In this document: in pieces, positions 8,242 through 29,380 of the stretch
Position numbering within the stretch: position 1 is the first letter of the stretch
Layout: every line of letters starts with the position of its first letter
Source: a virus
Direction: 5' to 3' (one strand)
Virus record (IMG/VR): IMGVR_UViG_3300032116_000832
Location: 1 to 32,384 of that record
Length of the DNA stretch: 32,384 nucleotides
Notes under the pieces: model-generated
What the model was told of the DNA's origin: nothing
The model's database searches: none
The model's input: only the letters and a program-made list of their open reading frames with translations
Translations under genes and position numbers: made by a program

Positions 8242-8451
8242 TCAGGCGTAGATGTTCTCGGTTTCGGGAGTTTCGGCGGGGACGATTCGGAGCGTTTCGA
8301 GGAATTCGGACAGTTCACCAAACTCCTCGCGCGCGGCAATGGCTGCTTTTCGCGTGGGGAATAGGCACGGTTCGTAGTTTTCGCCGTCGTATGATGCGCG
8401 GAGGTCTGACCAGCCGCCGGTTGAGGTTGAGAGTTGGATTTTGTAGCGCAT
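8242..8451 (-). CDS. Hypothetical protein, WSDL-type paralogue 2 (69 aa)
   Basis: The start at 8451 (MRYKIQLSTSTGGWSDLRAS) is chosen because it lies 5 bp after the upstream stop. The 48-codon upstream extension is an Arg-rich shadow. Motifs GWSDL, FPTRKAAIAAREEF and LRIVPAETPE align with the 6381-6632 gene, making these two paralogues separated by 1.6 kb. The start context is TGAATCCC ATG, the SD-less context recurrent in this cassette. Function unknown. Confidence 0.72.
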   Translation of the reverse strand: MRYKIQLSTSTGGWSDLRASYDGENYEPCLFPTRKAAIAAREEFGELSEFLETLRIVPAETPETENIYA

Positions 8452-8456
8452 GGGAT

Positions 8457-9056
8457 TCAGGCGTTGACGGCGTATTCCGACGCGAAACGAAGGCCTTCGG
8501 CGCGGCCTGATTCGGAGCCGCCTAGGACGATGCTTTCGCACGCGGAATCGCCTAGCTGGCGGGAAAAGGCGTTCCAGTGATTCCGCGCGTCGCAATGCGG
8601 GATTCCGCAGTCGCGGTGCAGGATATGCGCGAAGGCGGAGAAAAAGTCGTCGCGGACCTCGCTGACCTGCTCATCCATTCCAATCTCGCGCATCAGGTCA
8701 GCCTCCAGACGCGTCAGGCGCATGTTGGGGAGAATGCGTTCCACGACGAACACTTGCGCGTCGGCCCATAATTCCGGTCCGGCGTTGGTTCTGACGTACA
8801 GGGAGCCGTCGTCGAACAGATAGAAGCGGGTAGCGTCGGGGCGTGGGTCGTCCTGGAATGCTTCGCGGAGGTTGTCGGCGAATGGTTCGAATGAGATTTC
8901 AACAAGTTGTTGCTCTTCCTCCGTCAGGCGCGCGTCCATGCGGTAGTTATGGTGCAGGTAGGCGCGGACGGATTGCGGTAGGTCATGCGCGTCAAATGCG
9001 CGGACGGCAGGGTCGAAAAATTGGATTTCGCGGATGATTTGATGGATTGTTTTCAT
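8457..9056 (-). CDS. Hypothetical protein (199 aa)
   Basis: This is the largest gene of the right-hand unknown cassette, starting MKTIHQIIREIQFFDPAVRA. It has an acidic helical middle (LTEEEQQLVEISFEPFADNL) and a strand-rich part (TRFYLFDDGSLYVRTNAG). A His/Cys cluster (HILHRDCGIPHCDARNHWNA), about residues 145-165, might bind metal. The C-terminus is Gly/Ser-rich. The start at 9056 is preceded by an SD-less leader with three GGATT repeats and a 7-bp hairpin. No family is recognised. Confidence 0.68.
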   Translation of the reverse strand: MKTIHQIIREIQFFDPAVRAFDAHDLPQSVRAYLHHNYRMDARLTEEEQQLVEISFEPFADNLREAFQDDPRPDATRFYLFDDGSLYVRTNAGPELWADAQVFVVERILPNMRLTRLEADLMREIGMDEQVSEVRDDFFSAFAHILHRDCGIPHCDARNHWNAFSRQLGDSACESIVLGGSESGRAEGLRFASEYAVNA

Positions 9057-9139
9057 GGATTGGATTGGATTGATTGCGGATAGATTGGCCTACCCTTTCG
9101 CGTCACGCTTTTGGCATGGCGCGCGGAGGGTGGGCCGGA
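9057..9139 (-). repeat. Hairpin spacer F before the 8457-9056 gene
   Basis: On the minus strand GGGTAGG-CCAA-TCTATCC (9078-9095) can form a 7-bp stem with two G-U pairs. It is followed by CGCAATCAATCCAATCCAATCC and the ATG. Hairpin plus an AATC/ATCC-rich SD-less leader resembles spacers B, C and D at 10.8, 10.2 and 9.8 kb, but the second conserved hairpin is missing here. Confidence 0.5.
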
Positions 9140-9319
9140 CTATTCCGGCTGATATTCGCACAATTCAAAGAAGCAACGGCCCGTTTCCGGCTCTTTTCGG
9201 AATCGAACAGCCGTGCCGTTTTTCAAGTCGCGCGCATAATTCGGATACGGTGCAGGTGTTCCAATTTCTTCGCACAAATCGGACGCCTCTTCGAAAGACA
9301 GGGAGCGAATGAATTTCAT
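9140..9319 (-). CDS. Hypothetical protein (59 aa)
   Basis: The short frame from ATG 9319 (MKFIRSLSFEEASDLCEEIG) to TAG at 9140 encodes 59 well-balanced residues (PAPYPNYARDLKNGTAVRFR, then a Cys-containing end FELCEYQPE). It fills the space between the 8457 and 9341 genes exactly, with a 21-bp upstream spacer containing CCCCGCGCACCC before ATG. The start lacks an SD like its neighbours. Overlapping plus-strand frames look like shadows. Function unknown. Confidence 0.6.
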   Translation of the reverse strand: MKFIRSLSFEEASDLCEEIGTPAPYPNYARDLKNGTAVRFRKEPETGRCFFELCEYQPE

Positions 9320-9340
9320 GGGTGCGCGGGGAAAGGGTTT

Positions 9341-9784
9341 TCAGTTGAACCAGCGCGAGGCAATGCCGCGTCCGAACGTCTCGCGCGCGAATTTCCGAAC
9401 GTCCGGCGTCACGTTGTCCCGATAGAAACGCCAGATGGCGTTCGAAAGTGTCCGGCATACTGCGGCGCGATATTCGATGGCGAAATATTGTCCCGCGCAA
9501 TAGTCCAATTCCCCGCGCGCGGAATCGAAGGTTAGGCGTCCGGTTTCAAGCTCGCGCATGAGGAATTCAACGGGCATAGGCGAATGCTCAACGAAAACGA
9601 GAAGCGCGCGCGCGTCGCGTCCATGCTGAAGGATTCGGTTTCTGTCGGATCGAAGCGCAGACATTCCGGCATTATCGCGCCAGTCGGACGCATAATTGCG
9701 CCAGTCTAGGCCGGAGCGTTGCGCGACGAATGCGCGCAGTATGGCGCAAATTTCGGATTTTGTGATGATGGATTGAGCGGTCAT
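9341..9784 (-). CDS. Hypothetical protein (147 aa)
   Basis: The product begins MTAQSIITKSEICAILRAFV and contains SGLDWRNYASDWRDNAGMSA followed by a mainly helical body with many arginines and aromatics (YFAIEYRAAVCRTLSNAIW, RFYRDNVTPDVRKFAR). It is probably globular and helical; no catalytic motif stands out. The start follows the conserved spacer D (AATCAAAATCCAAAATCCC ATG). The codons are rich in CGC/GCG and GAATC-type strings, like the rest of this cassette. Confidence 0.68.
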   Translation of the reverse strand: MTAQSIITKSEICAILRAFVAQRSGLDWRNYASDWRDNAGMSALRSDRNRILQHGRDARALLVFVEHSPMPVEFLMRELETGRLTFDSARGELDYCAGQYFAIEYRAAVCRTLSNAIWRFYRDNVTPDVRKFARETFGRGIASRWFN

Positions 9785-9856
9785 GGGATTTTGGATTTTG
9801 ATTCGGGCGTGATTGCCCGCCAGAACCTACCGTTGCCGATAGGCTCGCGCGGGGAA
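9785..9856 (-). repeat. Conserved double-hairpin spacer D
   Basis: This 72-bp spacer opens with the stop of the upstream gene (TGATTCCCCGCGC). It then has hairpin 1, CCTATCG-GCAA-CGGTAGG (9826-9843, GNRA-type loop), and hairpin 2, CGGGC-AATCAC-GCCCG (9804-9819), and ends CGAATCAAAATCC...ATCCC before the ATG. The same order occurs in spacers B (10796-10866) and C (10199-10263), with stem bases changed but pairing kept. Confidence 0.65.
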
Positions 9857-10198
9857 TCAAAAGCTCTCGATTTTGTGAAGCGCGCTTTCAATGTCGCGCC
9901 GTAGACCGGAACGAATAGAATCGGCCAGTTTCAGCGCGTTTTCCATTATCCGTTCCGCTTCATCGCGCGCATCTTGGATGATCTTGGTTCGCTCACGCAT
10001 AGCATCGGCGCGCATTTCCGCGCAACGGCGCGCGCAATCCTGAATCGATGCGGAAGCTAGAATTCCCGGCGCGAAGTCTGAGCGGATATCGCTTTCGATA
10101 AACGGGATTTGTTCACGGAGCCACGCGCCGCAGTAGCTGTCGGAACCGAGACTATCGGCGCATTGCGTGAGGATTTGGATTTCTTCGGATTTGGTCAT
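9857..10198 (-). CDS. Hypothetical helical protein (113 aa)
   Basis: The start is placed at 10198 (MTKSEEIQILTQCADSLGSD), after spacer C. The in-frame upstream extension MIPRAASW... only translates the spacer. The N-terminal half contains SYCGAWLREQIPFIESDIRS. The C-terminal half is one long charged helix (MRERTKIIQDARDEAERIME and onward), probably a coiled coil. No motif with known activity. The start follows CGCCGAATCAAATCCC, lacking an SD. Confidence 0.7.
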   Translation of the reverse strand: MTKSEEIQILTQCADSLGSDSYCGAWLREQIPFIESDIRSDFAPGILASASIQDCARRCAEMRADAMRERTKIIQDARDEAERIMENALKLADSIRSGLRRDIESALHKIESF

Positions 10199-10263
10199 GG
10201 GATTTGATTCGGCGGGTAATTCGCCGCTACGCTCCACGGTTACCCATGAAGCGGCGCGGGGAA
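10199..10263 (-). repeat. Conserved double-hairpin spacer C
   Basis: The 65-bp spacer begins TGATTCCCCGCGC at the upstream stop. Hairpin 1 is CATGG-GTAA-CCGTG (10235-10248) within an outer GCCGCT/AGCGGC pairing (10223-10255). Hairpin 2 is CGGCG-AATTACC-CGCCG (10210-10226) and shares bases with the outer stem, so they may alternate. It ends GAATCAAATCCC ATG, as in spacer D. Confidence 0.62.
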
Positions 10264-10581
10264 TCAACGGCGGATAATTCCGGCGGCGAGCATAGCCTTG
10301 CGCCAGTACTTCGCCGCGCGCGGCGGATTCTCGCGCGCAAAATGAAGCGACTCCGTTCGTTCGCTTGCGTCGCGATAGTCGGTTTCAGGATAGGAAGAAA
10401 GCCACTCGAAAGCCTCGCCGCTTGGCGGATAACATGAAGGATTTGGATGCGCGCGCATGAGGGAAACCAATTCGCGGAACGAGACGGATTCGGATTCGAC
10501 TAGGAAACCGGATTCGGCGGATTCGCCGGATTCGGCGGATTCCGGCGTGATTACGTCAAAGGTTCGGGAAATTAAGATCAT
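10264..10581 (-). CDS. Hypothetical protein with Glu-Ser repeat (105 aa)
   Basis: The start at 10581 (MILISRTFDVITPESAESGE) lies 7 bp after the upstream stop. The longer frame upstream overlaps the neighbour and is not needed. Residues 13-30 contain a short tandem repeat (PESAESGESAESG) encoded by repeated GAATCCGCC/GGC units. The rest is VSFRELVSLMRAHPNPSC, PPSGEAFEWLSSYPETDYRD and a basic C-terminus (AAKYWRKAMLAAGIIRR). The fold is probably small and helical. Function unknown. Confidence 0.66.
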   Translation of the reverse strand: MILISRTFDVITPESAESGESAESGFLVESESVSFRELVSLMRAHPNPSCYPPSGEAFEWLSSYPETDYRDASERTESLHFARENPPRAAKYWRKAMLAAGIIRR

Positions 10582-10588
10582 GGGAATT

Positions 10589-10795
10589 TTACTTTGAGAG
10601 ATTGATGCGGGGACGGAATTCAAGGCATGGGCCGGAAACGGAAGCGGAAACATAGTAGTCTGACAGGTTGAAAGCGGCGATGCGTTCCGAATCGGGGAAC
10701 GGGAGAATGGCGTGGCATTCATGGGCTTTGCCTTCATTACGCAAGCGGGGAGTTCGATCGATTCGGCGACAGAATTCGGCGAATGTTTCTTTCAT
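10589..10795 (-). CDS. Hypothetical protein (68 aa)
   Basis: The ATG at 10795 (MKETFAEFCRRIDRTPRLRN) follows spacer B (GAAAATACC before ATG). An alternative TTG at 10870 would only translate the spacer hairpins and is rejected. The product has a helical, Arg-rich first half and a strand-rich second half (SDYYVSASVSGPCLEFRPRI). It is separated from the next gene by TAAAATTCCC. No family is recognised. Confidence 0.65.
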   Translation of the reverse strand: MKETFAEFCRRIDRTPRLRNEGKAHECHAILPFPDSERIAAFNLSDYYVSASVSGPCLEFRPRINLSK

Positions 10796-10866
10796 GGTAT
10801 TTTCTTTGGATTCGGCGTGATTGCCGATTGCTGCCCACCGATTGCCGATGGGCAGGGTATCGGGAA
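10796..10866 (-). repeat. Conserved double-hairpin spacer B
   Basis: The 71-bp spacer begins TGATTCCCGATACC at the upstream stop. Hairpin 1 is GCCCATCG-GCAAT-CGGTGGGC (10833-10853, 8 bp). Hairpin 2 is TCGGC-AATCAC-GCCGA (10812-10827), with the same AATCAC loop as spacer D but a different, still complementary stem. It ends CGAATCCAAAGAAAATACC before ATG. Confidence 0.65.
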
Positions 10867-11235
10867 TCAAACCAGTTCAGCGTAGGAATAGGACTTCAAA
10901 TCGAATCGAATCGAATCGGCGACGCCGGATTCGAATGCCTCCCAAAGCGATTCGGAATCCTCCGATTCGTTGAATTCGTGGGCGACGAATTCGAAGGGAG
11001 AATACTCACGGGAACCGGATTCGGCGGCATGGCAAAGGCATTCGTGATACTCTGCGATATTGTCGGCGGTGACTAGCTTGCCCAAGCCTACCCAATCGAT
11101 TGATGGGCAGATTCTGTCGCCGATAGTCGGGACATTATGGCAAGCGATGCCATGGCCGTGATTCCAACCCATACGATAGGCACGCTCTAAGTCGGCGGAT
11201 TGATAGGCTGCGGGGATAGTTTCGGGATAATTCAT
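10867..11235 (-). CDS. Phage hypothetical protein (122 aa)
   Basis: The product starts MNYPETIPAAYQSADLERAY and has the segment RMGWNHGHGIACHNVPTIGD, rich in His, Cys and Gly, which is a pattern I have seen in small tailed-phage proteins of unknown function. The middle holds LVTADNIAEYHECLCHAAES, and the C-terminal third is very acidic (EFNESEDSESLWEAFESG). A metal-binding site formed by the HGHGIACH cluster is possible but not established. The start is ATCAAATCCC ATG, without an SD. Confidence 0.7.
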   Translation of the reverse strand: MNYPETIPAAYQSADLERAYRMGWNHGHGIACHNVPTIGDRICPSIDWVGLGKLVTADNIAEYHECLCHAAESGSREYSPFEFVAHEFNESEDSESLWEAFESGVADSIRFDLKSYSYAELV

Positions 11236-11254
11236 GGGATTTGATTGGTGAAGG

Positions 11255-11359
11255 TTACAGTTGGGAAGCGAAGAAAAGGAAATAGAACGCGTACCCTAGG
11301 ACAGCATAGGTCAGGCAAAGGGCTAGGAAGGAAGCGAGTTTTTTGAGCGCGGATTTCAT
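11255..11359 (-). CDS. Tiny single-pass membrane protein (34 aa)
   Basis: The frame from ATG 11359 to TAA 11255 encodes MKSALKKLASFLALCLTYAV and onward to FYFLFFASQL: a basic N-terminus followed by one continuous hydrophobic segment. The arrangement is that of a small inner-membrane protein. A convincing promoter ends 10 nt upstream of the ATG, so it is the first gene of the minus-strand early operon. Function is unknown. A signal-peptide-only reading is unlikely because no mature portion follows. Confidence 0.6.
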   Translation of the reverse strand: MKSALKKLASFLALCLTYAVLGYAFYFLFFASQL

Positions 11360-11369
11360 TGGTGCGGAC

Positions 11370-11398
11370 AGACTAGGGGGGACGGGGTGGGAAGTCAA
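11370..11398 (-). promoter_or_regulatory. Putative early promoter for the minus-strand operon
   Basis: The minus strand reads TTGACT (11398-11393), a 17-nt C-rich spacer, then TAGTCT (11375-11370). Transcription would begin about 3-4 nt before the ATG at 11359, giving a nearly leaderless message, consistent with the missing SD. It is the only well-formed promoter-like sequence upstream of the leftward early genes. Confidence 0.55.
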
Positions 11399-11400
11399 AG

Positions 11401-11473
11401 GAAAAGTTTGAAAAAGTTTAGCAAGCGGTGAAAAGGGCTGATTTCATTGGGGAAAATGGGGAAAAAACTTTTC
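11401..11473. promoter_or_regulatory. Divergent control region with inverted and direct repeats
   Basis: GAAAAGTTT (11401-11409) is repeated directly as AAAAAGTTT (11411-11419) and inverted as AAACTTTTC (11465-11473). GGGGAAAA-type A-tracts lie between. The region separates the leftward early operon from the rightward genes and has the look of an operator/upstream activating area, but no binding protein can be named. Confidence 0.4.
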
Positions 11474-11527
11474 AGGCGGGCAGTCAACCGGCGGAAACTG
11501 AACGGGAAAACGGGGATTGCGAAACGG

Positions 11528-11546
11528 TACCTTGGATTGCAAGGTA
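11528..11546 (+). promoter_or_regulatory. Leader hairpin before the small-terminase-like gene
   Basis: TACCTTG-GATTG-CAAGGTA is a perfect 7-bp stem with a 5-nt loop ending 6 nt before the ATG at 11553. It overlaps the place where an SD would be and could control ribosome access or be bound by a protein. Confidence 0.45.
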
Positions 11547-11552
11547 GAGACG

Positions 11553-11996
11553 ATGAAACCAGAGCAGTGGACGAAAGCGAAAAGCCTCTACCTAGCGGGG
11601 AAGACTTGGAAAGCGATTTCAGACGATCTTGGGTTGAACCAGTCAACTCTACTTTCCAAGGCATCACGGGAAGGATTGCCCAAGGTGAGGAAGGAAATGC
11701 GAAACACTATTTCCTCTAAAGAAAACGTATCCCTAGAAAGCCTCTCCGCACTAGTCCGTTCGAAGCTAGCCGCCGACGCCGCTTCAACACTTGAACGCAT
11801 AGACAGCTATGAACTCGAAGGCATCAAAGATGAATCGACTCGCGAGCAGATACTGGGAAGCGTCGCAAAACGCAGCGCGCTTGTGTTCGGCTGGAGTGAA
11901 CAAGGTGAACAAGCTAGCGTGAGCATTAATCTTCTCGGTTCGATGCCTGACCGAACCTCGGTTGAAGTCAACGTGAGTGAACCTCAGGACAAGTGA
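11553..11996 (+). CDS. Small terminase subunit-like HTH protein (147 aa)
   Basis: The start at 11553 (MKPEQWTKAKSLYLAGKTWK) is preferred over an ATG 12 codons upstream because it follows the leader hairpin. Residues 4-35 form a homeodomain-like helix-turn-helix (WTKAKSLYLAGKTWKAISDD, LGLNQSTLLSKASREG). A long helical region, about 45-115, suitable for oligomerisation follows, then a short strand-rich C-terminus (ASVSINLLGSMPDRTSVEVN). This N-terminal DNA-binding, central oligomerising, short C-terminal layout is that of small terminase subunits that recognise packaging sites. It lies on the strand opposite to and 14 kb from the large subunit. A regulator is the alternative. Confidence 0.55.
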   Translation: MKPEQWTKAKSLYLAGKTWKAISDDLGLNQSTLLSKASREGLPKVRKEMRNTISSKENVSLESLSALVRSKLAADAASTLERIDSYELEGIKDESTREQILGSVAKRSALVFGWSEQGEQASVSINLLGSMPDRTSVEVNVSEPQDK

Positions 11997-12890: not shown

Positions 12891-14138
12891 ATGTCTTGTC
12901 CCAATGTCTTTAACGCCTTCGCGGTGGCTACCGAGTCGCTCGCGCAGGACGTTTACAAACGCGCCTCGTACCGTTCGATGTGGCTCAACCTCATTGAGCG
13001 CGGCGAGTATCCTCAGGGTACGGGTCTGACCCAGACCTCGTTCACCACGACCTCCATCGAGCCGACTGCGGCTGAAGAGTGGTCCGCCATCACCCTCGCG
13101 TCCGGCAACCCCGGTTCCGAAACCAGTGCTTGCGATGTCACCTACAATGACGTTCCGGTCGGCTACAACGCTGTCACCTGGGGGCCGGAGCGTTTCGCCC
13201 TCAAAGGTCCGCTCCTGTGTAAGGACGATCTGACCTTCGACCATCGCGTCGAGGCGTTCCTGCGTGTGTACTTGGAGAAGCTCTCCATCCGCGCTCAGCG
13301 TTCGTGGGAGACTCGCTATCAGAACATGTTCGCCAAGTACGCCATCAAGGCGGTGGCCGACTCGTCCTTCACTCAGGTTGAGACGATTCCGTCTGGTGTG
13401 AACGAGCTGCCCTGGATTCAGACCGGCTCCGTTGGTCAGGCGTTGAATCAGGCTACCTCCGAGCTGACGCAGGAGATGCTCGATGTCGCCGCCGCCACGC
13501 TGATCCGCAATGGCGCGACGAATCCTGATAGCTCTGGCTTCATCAGCTACTCTAGCGATGGTCCGGTGTTCCCGCTGTATATTGGCCTGGAGGCTTCCCA
13601 GCGTATCGCTCAGAACAATGCCGCGCTGCGTGAGGATCTGCGCTTCGCCGATATGGGTTCTGGTCCGGGTGCCGAGCTGCTCAAGCGGATTGGCGCGAAT
13701 CGGGTCATCAAGAACTTCCGCCATATTCCGAATCTGTTCCCGCCCCGCTTCAGCTACGCTGGCGGCAAGTACACGCTCATCCAGCCCTTCACCAGCTCCA
13801 GCGGTACGAAGGGTACTGTGTTCAGCGTCAACCCGAGCTGGACGACCGCCCTGTACGAGGGTGCGTTCATCCCGACTCCGTACGTCATCAAGAGCCATAT
13901 CGTTCGCCCTGTGAACCGTGTTGGCGACTTGAGCTGGATGCCGACCAACTACATGGGCGAGTGGCAGTGGGTGACTGGTGCCTACAAGCTCGATGTGGAT
14001 TGCGCCGATCCTCTGGAGAAGAAGGGTCAGCACTACGCTGAGTTCATTCATGCTGTGGAGCCGATCTTCACGAACCAGGGCATGACGATTATCTTCCGCC
14101 GCTGCACTGGCGCGCTGACTCAGATTATCTGTTCCTAA
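12891..14138 (+). CDS. Major capsid protein (415 aa)
   Basis: The 415-residue product has the usual length of an HK97-fold capsid of podovirus-type phages. It starts MSCPNVFNAFAVATESLAQD. It contains a helical N-arm, a long stretch compatible with the spine helix (VEAFLRVYLEKLSIRAQRSW, 115-134 region), a central domain with PVFPLYIGLEASQRIAQ, and a C-terminal strand-rich part (GEWQWVTGAYKLDVDCADP). Codon use is strongly biased to C-ending codons, unlike neighbours, consistent with high expression. It is preceded by a structured SD-less leader and followed by a strong terminator, so it is expressed as a near-monocistronic unit. The long antisense frame is a shadow. It lies on the strand opposite to the scaffold and portal. 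Confidence 0.85.
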   Translation: MSCPNVFNAFAVATESLAQDVYKRASYRSMWLNLIERGEYPQGTGLTQTSFTTTSIEPTAAEEWSAITLASGNPGSETSACDVTYNDVPVGYNAVTWGPERFALKGPLLCKDDLTFDHRVEAFLRVYLEKLSIRAQRSWETRYQNMFAKYAIKAVADSSFTQVETIPSGVNELPWIQTGSVGQALNQATSELTQEMLDVAAATLIRNGATNPDSSGFISYSSDGPVFPLYIGLEASQRIAQNNAALREDLRFADMGSGPGAELLKRIGANRVIKNFRHIPNLFPPRFSYAGGKYTLIQPFTSSSGTKGTVFSVNPSWTTALYEGAFIPTPYVIKSHIVRPVNRVGDLSWMPTNYMGEWQWVTGAYKLDVDCADPLEKKGQHYAEFIHAVEPIFTNQGMTIIFRRCTGALTQIICS

Positions 14139-14164
14139 TCGGAACAGCTAATAGCATCCGAAAG

Positions 14165-14195
14165 ACCCGCAGGTCCAAAAGGCTTGCGGGTTTTT
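14165..14195 (+). terminator. Intrinsic terminator after the capsid gene
   Basis: ACCCGCA (14165-14171) pairs with TGCGGGT (14185-14191), with a 13-nt loop, followed by a run of Ts (14191-14195). The stem is GC-rich and the position is 26 bp after the capsid stop. Confidence 0.8.
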
Positions 14196-25857: not shown

Positions 25858-26462
25858 GGTCGTTTTTTCCAGCAGTGAGCTGGCAAGTTTGCGTTCTCTG
25901 TAGCGTCCGTAAATTTATGGAGTGTTTCAATGGGAAACCACACCATGCTTCTAATGAAGCAACCACAAAATTCACAGCTTTGAAGCTGCTCGTCTAGTGG
26001 TGTTGTTCCGTGTTGAGAAAGTGTCCTGACAGCTTCTTTGAGGACGCGAGCGTTGCATCCGGTGCATCCGAGTGGCTTCCGATTGAATTGACATCCAGCG
26101 CAAATGCTCGCCCTTCGAATAGCTTCCGCCTGATCAACCTTGCCGCCACCAACGGTCAGCCCATGAATCAGGCTCATGCTGAAGCGGATAACGTCTCCGA
26201 TCTGAAGAGATTTCAAACCTGCTGGTTTAGGAATCTCAACTTCGTCGTAGGAGCAGTCGGCACCGTTACGACACTGATATTCGGTGATTAAGATGTCGAG
26301 GTTGTCAGGAACCTTGACCGCGTTGGCAGCGTAATGGTTGCGGACGAACTCGCGGAGCTGCGGTAATGAACCTGCGGGTATCTCGATGCCGGTTTCAGGA
26401 ACTCGGTAGTTCCATCCGCCAGGAATGACATTGTGTTCATTGAGGATCTTGTAGCCGCTCAT
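25842..26462 (-). CDS. Zinc-ribbon-like protein between terminase and portal (206 aa)
   Basis: The start at 26462 (MSGYKILNEHNVIPGGWNYR) overlaps the terminase stop as ATGA. The first half is strand-rich (VPETGIEIPAGSLPQLREFV). The second half holds cysteine pairs in zinc-ribbon spacing, ASICAGCQFNRKPLGCTGCN and QSCEFCGCF, plus a final PAHCWKK. This Cys-rich protein sits between terminase and portal in the packaging operon, suggesting a packaging or head-completion role, but I do not know the family by name. Two zinc sites are possible. Confidence 0.7.
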   Translation of the reverse strand: MSGYKILNEHNVIPGGWNYRVPETGIEIPAGSLPQLREFVRNHYAANAVKVPDNLDILITEYQCRNGADCSYDEVEIPKPAGLKSLQIGDVIRFSMSLIHGLTVGGGKVDQAEAIRRASICAGCQFNRKPLGCTGCNARVLKEAVRTLSQHGTTPLDEQLQSCEFCGCFIRSMVWFPIETLHKFTDATENANLPAHCWKKRPCTET

Positions 26463-28138
26463 ACGTCCCCGTCGTAGTAAATGGAGTCTGCGTCCCTCAC
26501 CAGCTTTTCCCATACCTTGTCCATCTTTGTTGCTCGCGGTTCAAAGGAGGCGGTTTTACGCACCAGATCAAGCAAGACTACAGCAGCGTCGGCTAAGTCA
26601 GGCGATTTGCCGGTTCTTTGCTTCATCACAGTCTTTGATTCGACGGATATCTTCCGCTTCCCATCGTCGAACATTCGCGCACAGAACTCCTGCAATGTCT
26701 CGATGTCCATGCCGCCGACCCGCTCCTCGACGACCCATTTACGCATCGAGAACCAGAGTTCCGTCACCTTGCGGTCGTATGCCTCATTGCATGGCCTACT
26801 ATCCTCGTCGCTGACCGGAATGGTCGATGGAGAGCCGCCGAACTCGACGCGATGAACTACACCCCATTCTCTAGTCAGGATGTCTGCCAGACCGCCACCC
26901 TCACCGCTTGAATCGAGAGCGAACTTGTCCGGTGAAACGCCGCGCTTGTTGCATTCCTCTTTAACTCGATTGGCTATCTGGTAATGGACCGGCTCGGTGA
27001 GCTGCGCGTTGGGCGATATCTGGATGATATCCTGAAAGAGGATGCTCAGCTTATCGTTAGCGGTGCCGACTTTGGCAAAGCGAAGGATACATCTATCACC
27101 TCCGAAGCCAGGGTCGAGAGCTGCGACGATTTGGACGTTGGTCGTAAACGTGAGCTTCTTGTTCGGTGAATGCGTGTCGATGAGCGACTCGGACAACACC
27201 GTCTTGACCATGCCGTCAGGACTCCAGAATCCGCGTGTGTACTTCCAGAACGTAGGACTCTGCTCGCCCTCATGGCGCATCGCCGACAAGACTTGATCTT
27301 GGGTGATGAGGTATGGGTATTTCGTTCGCCCCTCGGTGATGTTCGGCGACTTCATGCCGTCGAAGCGTCGGCACATGCCGCGTTCAGTCAGCCAGTGCTG
27401 ATCTTCAATCGTGACGCTGCGCCATCCTTTTGCTGGGGTGCAGAATCTGCCGTGCGGATCAAACTTTGATGCCGGATTCCCAATAACCAGCATCTTGAAC
27501 TCGCGGCAACCCTTGGAGAGGTTCGTGCAAGCCTCGAACGCTGCTTCAGGCGTATCCGTCGCCTCGTCGATGATGACCATCACGCGCTCGGCGTGAATAC
27601 CCTGAATGTTGGCCACTGCCTTCGAGGTGTTACCTTCGGCGACGGCGATAGCTGAAATGGAGTGCCGGTCGTCACCTTTGACAGCCTGCAATGCCATCTT
27701 CGAATCGACCATGTTGCCGGGGAATCCACGCGATTTGCGAACAAGATCCTGAAGATTGGCCCACATACGCTTTCGGATCATCTTCGCGGTCGTCGATGTC
27801 AGAACGACCGTTGACTTGGCAGGGTTGGCTAACCACCAGACTGTCGCGAAAAGCGTTGCGCCGAAGGTCTTTCCGCTCGCTCCGCATCCCGCCCATCCAA
27901 CGTAGTCATGCTCACAGAGGCTTTCGACTTGAGCTTCTAACCACGGGTTCCAACTCATCTTCGGCCAGAGCATTTTCGTCGCATTTTGAAAATGTTCGAA
28001 AGTGCCTAGTCCACCCTCGTTTGGTTGGAGTCGATTTCGGAAAGCGTACAGCTCTAGTTCAAGATCGGGAATCTTGACGGGCGAGCGTATTCCGTACTTG
28101 TGGTCGATCAATGGATTCTCAGACACTTGCTCTGCCAT
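26459..28138 (-). CDS. Terminase large subunit (559 aa)
   Basis: Start 28138 (MAEQVSENPL) is preferred: AAGGCCAAACT precedes it and it does not overlap the plus-strand gene. M at 28153 is an alternative. The ATPase shows Walker A GWAGCGASGKT (81-91) and Walker B VMVIIDEAT (186-194, Asp191-Glu192). The RNase-H-like nuclease shows AALDPGFGGDR (339-349, Asp342), FALDSSGEGGGLAD (407-419, Asp409) and SPDLADAAVV (512-521, Asp514/Asp517). It pumps DNA through the portal and cuts concatemers. All key residues are present. The portal and zinc-ribbon genes follow as one operon. Confidence 0.93.
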   Translation of the reverse strand: MAEQVSENPLIDHKYGIRSPVKIPDLELELYAFRNRLQPNEGGLGTFEHFQNATKMLWPKMSWNPWLEAQVESLCEHDYVGWAGCGASGKTFGATLFATVWWLANPAKSTVVLTSTTAKMIRKRMWANLQDLVRKSRGFPGNMVDSKMALQAVKGDDRHSISAIAVAEGNTSKAVANIQGIHAERVMVIIDEATDTPEAAFEACTNLSKGCREFKMLVIGNPASKFDPHGRFCTPAKGWRSVTIEDQHWLTERGMCRRFDGMKSPNITEGRTKYPYLITQDQVLSAMRHEGEQSPTFWKYTRGFWSPDGMVKTVLSESLIDTHSPNKKLTFTTNVQIVAALDPGFGGDRCILRFAKVGTANDKLSILFQDIIQISPNAQLTEPVHYQIANRVKEECNKRGVSPDKFALDSSGEGGGLADILTREWGVVHRVEFGGSPSTIPVSDEDSRPCNEAYDRKVTELWFSMRKWVVEERVGGMDIETLQEFCARMFDDGKRKISVESKTVMKQRTGKSPDLADAAVVLLDLVRKTASFEPRATKMDKVWEKLVRDADSIYYDGDV

Positions 28139-28192
28139 AGTTTGGCCTTGCATTAGTTGTCGTTGGACTTGAGGTTCTGCGAAAGGAAAATT

Positions 28193-29380
28193 ATGCCGTC
28201 GCAACTTGTTTCTTCATCCGGCTGTTGCCAGCCTTGCGACTCCGAGCCGGTAGTCGTGAATATCCCCGGTCCTCAAGGGGCAGCGGGGGCAAACGGCACC
28301 AATGGCACGAACGGGATTGATTCGTTCTCCTACACGACCGCTCAGTTTTTTGTTCCTGCACTAGGGTCATCGGTCGTCGTTCCGTTGAGCGGCACGAGCT
28401 TTCTCCCCGAGTCAGTCGCCGGACAGTTCTTTGTCTCGATTCAGGGTGTTGGATACATGCAGGTGACAGATGTCACCGGACTCAATGTTACGCTTAAGAA
28501 TCCTTCTTCTGGAGTTCTTGGAATTGCCAATGCGGTTCCTACGACCTCCATTCCATCAGGTTCTCTTGTAACGCTTGCTGGTGGCGTTGGGCCGCAAGGT
28601 GCTGCCGGTGTTTCGGGCGGTGCGCCGGTTGGAGCTTCTTATATCTGCCGCACAGCCGATGGAACTCTGACGAACGAGACAGCCCTCGATTCGCTTGCCG
28701 CCGGTTACATGAAGACCGCCGGATCGGGCGGTTCTGGCGTCGTCTCGACCGTTGCGACGGTTCCAGTTGGCGACATCAGCGGCACGTTGCCGATTGCTAA
28801 GGGCGGAACGAATCTGACCACAGTTCCTTCCAATGGCCAACTTCTGATCGGAAACGGAACCGGATACACAGTAGCCGGATTGACGGCAGGATCTGGAATC
28901 ACGATTACGCCGGGAGCCGGAACCATTTCAATCGCATCGACAGCCGCAACAGCATTTAGCTACGTCACGTTTACGCGGAGGGTGACATCTGCTCCTCCGA
29001 CTATTTCGACGGCTGCAAATCCTTTTAATTCCACCACATACCCGTCAACTACCTATTCAGGAATTGATACGGCTTCTGGTTTTACTGCTGCAAACGGTAG
29101 ATTTACCGCATCAAATGCTGGCTACTATCGTTTAAGCGCGCTGATACATAATGGATTTGTCTCAGGTGTTTACGATATAACTTTGCAAATTAGAAAGAAC
29201 GGAACGCCTATTTACAGTGTTGGATACCGGATTTCAGCGGTGGATGACCCTCCCGTTGCAGTTGAGTTTTTAGATCAGGCGTCAGCGTCTGATTTCTACG
29301 AACTGTTTATTGCGTCAGCGACAAATAGTTCTCTTTTTAATACAGGCTCTTCATTTTCTATCCAGCGGATTCAGGCTTAA
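28193..29380 (+). CDS. Collagen-like/C1q-like fibre protein (395 aa)
   Basis: The ATG at 28193 (MPSQLVSSSGCCQPCDSEPV) follows AAAGGAAAATT. Residues 22-38 have a collagen-like GPQGAAGANGTNGTNG stretch. A beta-rich domain follows, then a second GPQGAAG and the fibre motif PIAKGGTNLTTVPSNGQLLI with GLTAGSGITITPGAGTISI. The C-terminal ~130 residues resemble a C1q/TNF-like jelly roll (GIDTASGFTAANGRFTASNA, then YYRLSALIHNGF). This is a trimeric adhesin or fibre, probably a receptor-binding appendage. The three Cys residues near the N-terminus are unusual for a fibre and may hold the trimer or attach it. Confidence 0.8.
   Translation: MPSQLVSSSGCCQPCDSEPVVVNIPGPQGAAGANGTNGTNGIDSFSYTTAQFFVPALGSSVVVPLSGTSFLPESVAGQFFVSIQGVGYMQVTDVTGLNVTLKNPSSGVLGIANAVPTTSIPSGSLVTLAGGVGPQGAAGVSGGAPVGASYICRTADGTLTNETALDSLAAGYMKTAGSGGSGVVSTVATVPVGDISGTLPIAKGGTNLTTVPSNGQLLIGNGTGYTVAGLTAGSGITITPGAGTISIASTAATAFSYVTFTRRVTSAPPTISTAANPFNSTTYPSTTYSGIDTASGFTAANGRFTASNAGYYRLSALIHNGFVSGVYDITLQIRKNGTPIYSVGYRISAVDDPPVAVEFLDQASASDFYELFIASATNSSLFNTGSSFSIQRIQA

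Follow-up and report, generated by a model that had tools for sequence, protein, structure and literature searches.

In lambdoid phages, the exchanged genes meet at short conserved joints, the boundary (linker) sequences. The attC site of integrons, an imperfect palindrome with a variable centre, stands at the 3' end of each single-gene cassette, and lambda boxB and HK022 put provide the comparison for RNA-protein docking and antitermination. The promoter-early stem-loop cassettes (PeSLs) of T4-type phages (Arbiol et al. 2010; Comeau et al. 2014; cited in PMC4503421) are described in the citing paper as intergenic stem-loops that are dense in shuffled regions and mediate the exchange of small genes (PMC4503421). 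Cluster K mycobacteriophages carry SAS and ESAS, repeated inverted-repeat elements that lie directly upstream of start codons and adjoin small non-structural genes of different families; SAS is a 13-bp start-associated sequence containing a Shine-Dalgarno core 3-7 nt before the start, and the changes seen in ESAS do not, according to its authors, support base pairing (PMC3203893). In phage T7, R1.1 is a 60-nt intergenic hairpin with a 4/5 internal loop that is cut by RNase III (PMC6121014).

The window analysed here (the whole stretch of DNA, 32,384 bases) is a tailed-phage record, with a gene for the large subunit of terminase at 26459-28204 on the minus strand (PHROG 2), and contains a block of small genes with hairpins in the spacers between them. 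Like the lambdoid linkers these hairpins are conserved joints, with the difference that they are structured RNA with compensating changes. They differ from attC in that no recombinase was found in 21 records of the phage group, a host integrase being possible, and in a wobble asymmetry that argues for selection on RNA. They share with the PeSLs the marking of regions of gene shuffling; a PeSL, however, consists of an early promoter and a terminator stem-loop, whereas neither a sigma-70-like promoter nor a T-run terminator was found here in 8900-11600, and the present hairpin is anchored in a stop codon and conserved by covariation. The SAS and ESAS elements are also inverted repeats upstream of the start codons of small genes, but here the pairs covary, 0 of 47 tails contain a Shine-Dalgarno sequence, and the anchor is the upstream stop rather than the start. 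The RNase III sites of T7 are, similarly, 50-60-nt intergenic hairpins with internal loops among small early genes (R1.1: PMC6121014); the present hairpins, in contrast, have a fixed stop codon, GNRA loop and U-G wobble, and are a repeated family that reassorts with the genes.

Results

The window and its phage group

The left arm of the window encodes ThyX, a DUF3799/PDDEXK nuclease and a protein with a weak match to RecT. The protein encoded at 12891-14138 on the plus strand, which had no match in a PHROG search, is presumed, on account of where it lies and how conserved it is, to be the major capsid protein. Relatives of it are encoded in at least 330 stretches of IMG/VR. The carriers of the hairpins are a large group of freshwater phages, and 14 of the 16 carriers belong to the same phage group by the capsid gene. 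A distant blastn search of the GenBank phage set with a 2.9-kb region found no similar DNA. When genome contigs were scanned with the pattern of one type A subtype, there was a single match, in an alphaproteobacterial MAG, and no host or prophage link was found; the match was rejected as type A because on reading it lacked the hairpin and resembled coding sequence.

Most genes of the window have starts without a Shine-Dalgarno sequence, and in the cassette block many have ATCCC directly before the ATG; the predominance of such starts suggests a host in which initiation would be of a non-Shine-Dalgarno kind. Just 3' of the presumed major capsid gene, at about 14160-14195 on the plus strand, there is a strong terminator-like hairpin followed by a T run, and the version of this hairpin in relatives has the form ATCCGCAGATCCGAAAGGGTTTGCGGATTTTT with a GNRA loop.

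Hairpins of the cassette block

The features of the block are as follows.

10867-11235, minus strand: cassette gene, 122 aa, without a confident family
10818-10869, minus strand: type A hairpin S1 (CCGAU subtype), 14-nt 5' arm, 10-bp upper stem, GCAAU loop
10812-10827, minus strand: alternative hairpin 2 of S1, UCGGC AAUCAC GCCGA, competing with the S1 lower stem
10796-10817, minus strand: tail equivalent to 9785-9809
10589-10795, minus strand: cassette gene, 68 aa, without a confident family
10264-10581, minus strand: cassette gene, 105 aa, without a family match
10217-10266, minus strand: type A hairpin S2, 13-nt arm, 10-bp stem, GUAA loop
10210-10226, minus strand: alternative hairpin 2 of S2, CGGCG AAUUACC CGCCG
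10199-10216, minus strand: tail equivalent to 9785-9809
9857-10198, minus strand: cassette gene, 113 aa, without a confident family
9810-9859, minus strand: type A hairpin S3, 13-nt arm, 10-bp stem, GCAA loop
9804-9819, minus strand: alternative hairpin 2 of S3, CGGGC AAUCAC GCCCG
9785-9809, minus strand: initiation tail of the S3 spacer, mostly unstructured, A/C-rich, without Shine-Dalgarno, with AAAATCCC and then the ATG at 9784
9341-9784, minus strand: cassette gene, 147 aa, without a family match
9140-9319, minus strand: cassette gene, 59 aa, without a family match
9086-9137, minus strand: type B hairpin, architecture as in type A with a different sequence, stop codon (UAG) 5 nt upstream

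A first-pass annotation of this DNA had described three spacers of common architecture on the minus strand, and their positions and loops were borne out by a check of the sequence. It had further read each spacer as two independent hairpins, which did not survive folding: the dominant fold is a single long hairpin, and hairpin 2 is a weaker alternative sharing its 3' strand. The main fold comprises a UGA in the 5' base, 5 bp, a 1x1 mismatch, 5 bp, an internal loop, 10 bp and a GNRA loop. The first bases of S1, S2 and S3 are the UGA stop codons of the genes 11235-10867, 10581-10264 and 10198-9857, respectively. For S1 and S3 the fold of lowest energy is a single long hairpin with UGAUU paired to AAUCA, and for S2 it is a three-way fold competing closely with the long hairpin. 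The tail proposed for all three spacers, GAATC-AAA-ATCCC ATG, is present in two of them, and S1 has GAATCCAAAGAAAATACC ATG instead.

Against dinucleotide shuffles the S1, S2 and S3 spacers have z values of -4.6, -4.2 and -4.4, with 0 of 200 shuffles as stable, and no other GNRA-capped stem of 8 bp or more occurs anywhere on the window's minus strand. A covariance model whose training set left out S1 found exactly three strong minus-strand copies in the window (E 5.5e-21, 1.3e-18 and 5.5e-11). Rfam release 15 gave no match in the window at the gathering threshold, and a permissive search (E up to 5) gave chance-level matches only. No Pfam family scored above cut-off for the cassette genes of the window or for 10 representatives from relatives.

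Stable GC-rich hairpins at the ends of genes might be intrinsic terminators or attenuators. No T run follows them, however, and a scan of the region 8900-11600 found neither a terminator-like site nor a sigma-70-like promoter site, so that we regard this explanation as highly improbable.

Covariation and strand

Related phages in IMG/VR contain about 50 distinct copies of the type A hairpin, collected by a pattern scan and through relatives of the capsid gene; the pattern scan of viral contigs alone gave 35 stretches. In 54 distinct contexts the hairpin directly follows an ORF of 60 to 193 aa, the stop codon being the first codon of the hairpin. The shape is nearly fixed. An arm of 13 to 14 nt, counted from the first stop-codon base, leads to the upper stem, which usually has 10 bp and a GNRA loop; the distance from that base to the start of the loop is 23 to 25 nt in all 49 distinct type A copies, and an ORF of at least 60 aa precedes every one of the 49.

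Among the 30 gapless type A copies, 96.2% of the cells are paired and 11 of 20 pairs show two-sided changes, with 90 double-change cells vs 30±4 in shuffled and 7 to 23 in slid controls. The copies are related, and the shuffle counts are therefore not probabilities; the slid controls, however, retain the relatedness and fall far short. The second subtype (UGAUUC CCGAU..., which includes S1 and consists mostly of separate copies) is 99.2% paired, with 5 two-sided pairs and 23 double changes vs 8.5±2.1 shuffled. In all, the covariation is very strong and strand-specific across about 50 copies.

Chance, or the local composition of a region that is rich in GAATC and CCG repeats, is scarcely credible as the source of the hairpins: the shuffles, the slid controls and dozens of relatives with compensating changes are all contrary to it, and an unrelated lineage, L118/L120, keeps the same arm. 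Neither condition that would have refuted the original observation, a lack of further copies in related phages or a similarity owed only to GAATC composition, was borne out.

The cells that are not Watson-Crick paired consist of 55 G-U in 10 columns vs 3 A-C in 2 columns. In a DNA palindrome G-T and A-C should be equally acceptable, and the asymmetry therefore indicates selection at the RNA level. Of the 30 copies, 27 keep a U-G wobble three pairs below the loop, and the GNRA loop is found on the coding strand. These properties argue for selection acting on the transcribed RNA and not on a DNA palindrome, as judged from the pattern of substitutions. The earlier suggestion of an RNA element is in this respect upheld by the strand-specific covariation; its other part, a control of translation or processing, is a putative role that we infer from the sequence.

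Other hairpin types and other lineages

What had been annotated as a partial copy at 9057-9139 is actually a second, equally conserved type of hairpin (9137-9086), present in at least 120 viral contigs. The type B hairpin has 5 bp, a 1x1 mismatch, 5 bp, a 3x2 internal loop, 10 bp and a tetraloop. Its pattern occurs in at least 120 stretches of IMG/VR, and 88 distinct copies were read. The covariation count for type B is 20 double-change cells vs 6.7 shuffled. The lower stem is nearly invariant, with an A-C as third pair in most copies, and its covariation is silent because it hardly varies. The stop codon lies at the first base of the hairpin in 36 of the 88 copies and otherwise mostly 4 to 9 nt upstream. 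The A-C mismatch was considered as a consequence solely of the stop codon, and this was rejected, many TGACC copies having their stop elsewhere. Type B is far commoner in IMG/VR than type A, and some contigs (L143, L166, L193) have two copies. The gene 9056-8457 belongs to a block (8449-9134, minus strand) that is present or absent between relatives, often at about 87% identity, with type B on one side.

A different junction in relatives carries types C and D. The lower arm of type D is entirely different (UAAAGCAACGUGU), and there are still 13 nt from the first base of the stop to a 10-bp stem; the lower stem of type C is weak. The anchoring in the stop codon is similar in both to that of type A. 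Types C and D, with their unlike lower arms, alternate at one junction, before the MTNRYPGQCVQCHEY protein (L012, L020 and others), as if one hairpin may have replaced the other.

The element recurs in two other phage lineages. L094 and L095 are without the capsid gene of the group and their terminase is only about 25% identical, yet a type A hairpin stands between members of the same cassette gene families, at about 41-75% protein identity. L118 and L120 have no detectable DNA similarity to the other loci compared and contain a short form with an 8-bp upper stem, in which the lower stem and the 13-nt arm from the UGA are as elsewhere and hairpin 2 forms under occlusion. The short-form hairpins, two of them in L120, are the following.

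L118, 10579-10625: short-form hairpin
L120, 2081-2126: short-form hairpin
L120, 2385-2430: short-form hairpin

The upper stem of type B has an A-U and a U-G at pairs 7 and 8, the same place as in type A. The fixed apical A-U and U-G under a GNRA-type loop suggest a motif that may be recognised, and an antitermination or other RNA-protein docking site repeated along the operon, comparable to lambda boxB or HK022 put, would have such a loop with fixed pairs at one place in both types. The copies, however, follow single genes or gene pairs instead of being promoter-proximal, the loop-proximal pairs otherwise vary, and an N-like gene did not come to light; we consider a docking site improbable.

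The strongest rival is a processing or mRNA-stability site, cut by host RNase III or a similar enzyme, with hairpin ends left behind that stabilise the mRNA, because T7 R1.1 is a similar intergenic hairpin. The geometry is nearly constant while the sequence is free, with about 23 paired layers if mismatches are counted; this, the length of some two helical turns interrupted by a mismatch and an internal loop, and the position between small genes are all as such a site would have them. It would, however, need no stop codon as its first base, no conserved U-G wobble and no GNRA loop, and the 8-bp upper stems of L118 and L120 shorten the helix. Processing by RNase III is accordingly a real possibility to us, if not one that we favour.

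Reassortment of genes at the hairpins

The hairpins sit between co-directional genes. In blastn comparisons of the window with its relatives, the spacers match as islands and the intervening genes differ. The genes between copies had been called unrelated, which does not stand as it was put, since the same families recur in relatives in other orders; the families on either side do reassort at the spacers in related phages. Each of six upstream gene families is found with 2 to 7 different downstream families behind it, and eight downstream families are each preceded by 2 to 5 upstream ones. In pairs with a common upstream gene the similarity mostly stops 20 to 40 nt past the hairpin, at about the next start codon, which is 12 to 34 nt from the hairpin, and in pairs with a common downstream gene it mostly starts at the stop codon or in the tail. 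The similarity of the hairpins tracks the upstream gene (0.51) more than the downstream gene (0.42), against a background of 0.34. In L067, two genes of the window are in the opposite order. The proposal of a recombination boundary that allows exchange of cassettes is thus strengthened by both the reassorting families and the ends of similarity around the start and stop codons that border the spacer.

Single genes that reassort like cassettes around a conserved palindromic joint, and a gene order that differs between the window and L067, could also arise from a DNA-level recombination site, either an attC-type folded single strand or a protein-bound palindrome, moved by a site-specific recombinase. 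The 55 to 3 ratio of G-U to A-C and the GNRA loops on the coding strand fit RNA instead, and tyrosine recombinase (PF00589) was absent from the 21 records of the group, whereas the control search found it in 14 of 14 genomes. We hold a DNA site to be very improbable. In the absence of a tyrosine recombinase from these records, ordinary homologous recombination would be the simplest route of shuffling, and it may have been carried out by genes of the RecT/PDDEXK type.

The alternative hairpin and a possible role of the terminating ribosome

Hairpin 2 and the long hairpin's lower stem draw on one and the same 3' strand, and the two therefore exclude each other. In folding calculations none of 48 copies forms hairpin 2 natively; occlusion of the first 13 nt brings it out in 39 of the 48 with the upper stem intact. 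Most of the flip is reached with 8 to 9 nt blocked, and blocking more than 13 nt starts to melt the upper stem. The mean energy of hairpin 2 is -7.3 vs -5.9±0.2 kcal/mol with permuted tails, beyond all 500 permutations, in a comparison that ignores relatedness. Six copies have no hairpin 2 at all, and tails permuted among copies still give it in 35±2 of 48 under occlusion, so that support for the switch in the main group is only modest.

The accessibility of the start codon is 0.83 vs 0.82 in the two folds, and the idea that hairpin 2 is an on/off gate of the next start was rejected on the grounds of this near-constancy. No Shine-Dalgarno-like word was found in any of the 47 distinct tails, and few genes of the window have one. 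Translational bypass between the genes was also rejected, as the distances from stop to start fall into all three frames (23/15/14) and each downstream gene has an ATG of its own.

Toeprints give about 13 nt, with the first base of the stop as the starting point, for the stretch that a terminating ribosome covers. The 13-nt 5' arm of the hairpin equals this stretch, which raises the prospect that the element is a gauge for the terminating ribosome: occupancy would flip the long hairpin to hairpin 2 and place the upper stem at the ribosome entrance. The unchanged accessibility of the start, the formation of hairpin 2 with permuted tails and the six copies without it weaken this reading, whose core is the coincidence of the two lengths and which we think unlikely, though not remotely so. 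We have found no description of a stop-codon-anchored regulatory RNA of such a kind.

Discussion

Our best explanation, to which we would give an even chance, is a family of hairpins selected as RNA that marks the joints in a shuffling block of small genes, each hairpin being a putative connector and recombination boundary. The joint would insulate or process the neighbouring cassette genes and would double as a boundary for homologous recombination, this being the best reading of the comparative evidence.

In such a mechanism, the hairpin would act in the mRNA, after transcription and most probably in translation, to separate each gene from its neighbour. During termination at the stop codon the ribosome would sit over the 5' arm of about 13 nt, the upper stem would remain as a roadblock and the freed 3' arm would form hairpin 2; after departure of the ribosome the long hairpin would close again. 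The downstream gene would keep its own open, Shine-Dalgarno-free start, and each gene would carry a connector independent of its context. The RecT/PDDEXK-type recombination genes of the phages could then swap genes at the spacers with expression unbroken, since the connector at the end of each gene is of one kind. Counting against the anchoring in the stop codon is that type B hairpins often start 4 to 9 nt after it.

The element has no match in Rfam and is set apart both from ESAS and from the PeSLs. It would therefore represent a new family of structured punctuation between exchangeable phage genes, with an anchor in the stop codon. If the gauge reading is true, it would be a portable RNA connector, anchored in the stop codon, through which phage genes become interchangeable within an operon.

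Most of the unknown accessory genes of phages lie in hypervariable blocks, and it is poorly understood how these genes slot into an operon and are immediately expressed. An element at the joints between cassettes can be counted and aligned, and its compensating changes allow it to be tested by ordinary mutagenesis. The covariance model is a handle for finding cassette genes in freshwater phages, and the geometry tied to the stop codon suggests a link between the termination of translation and the next gene.
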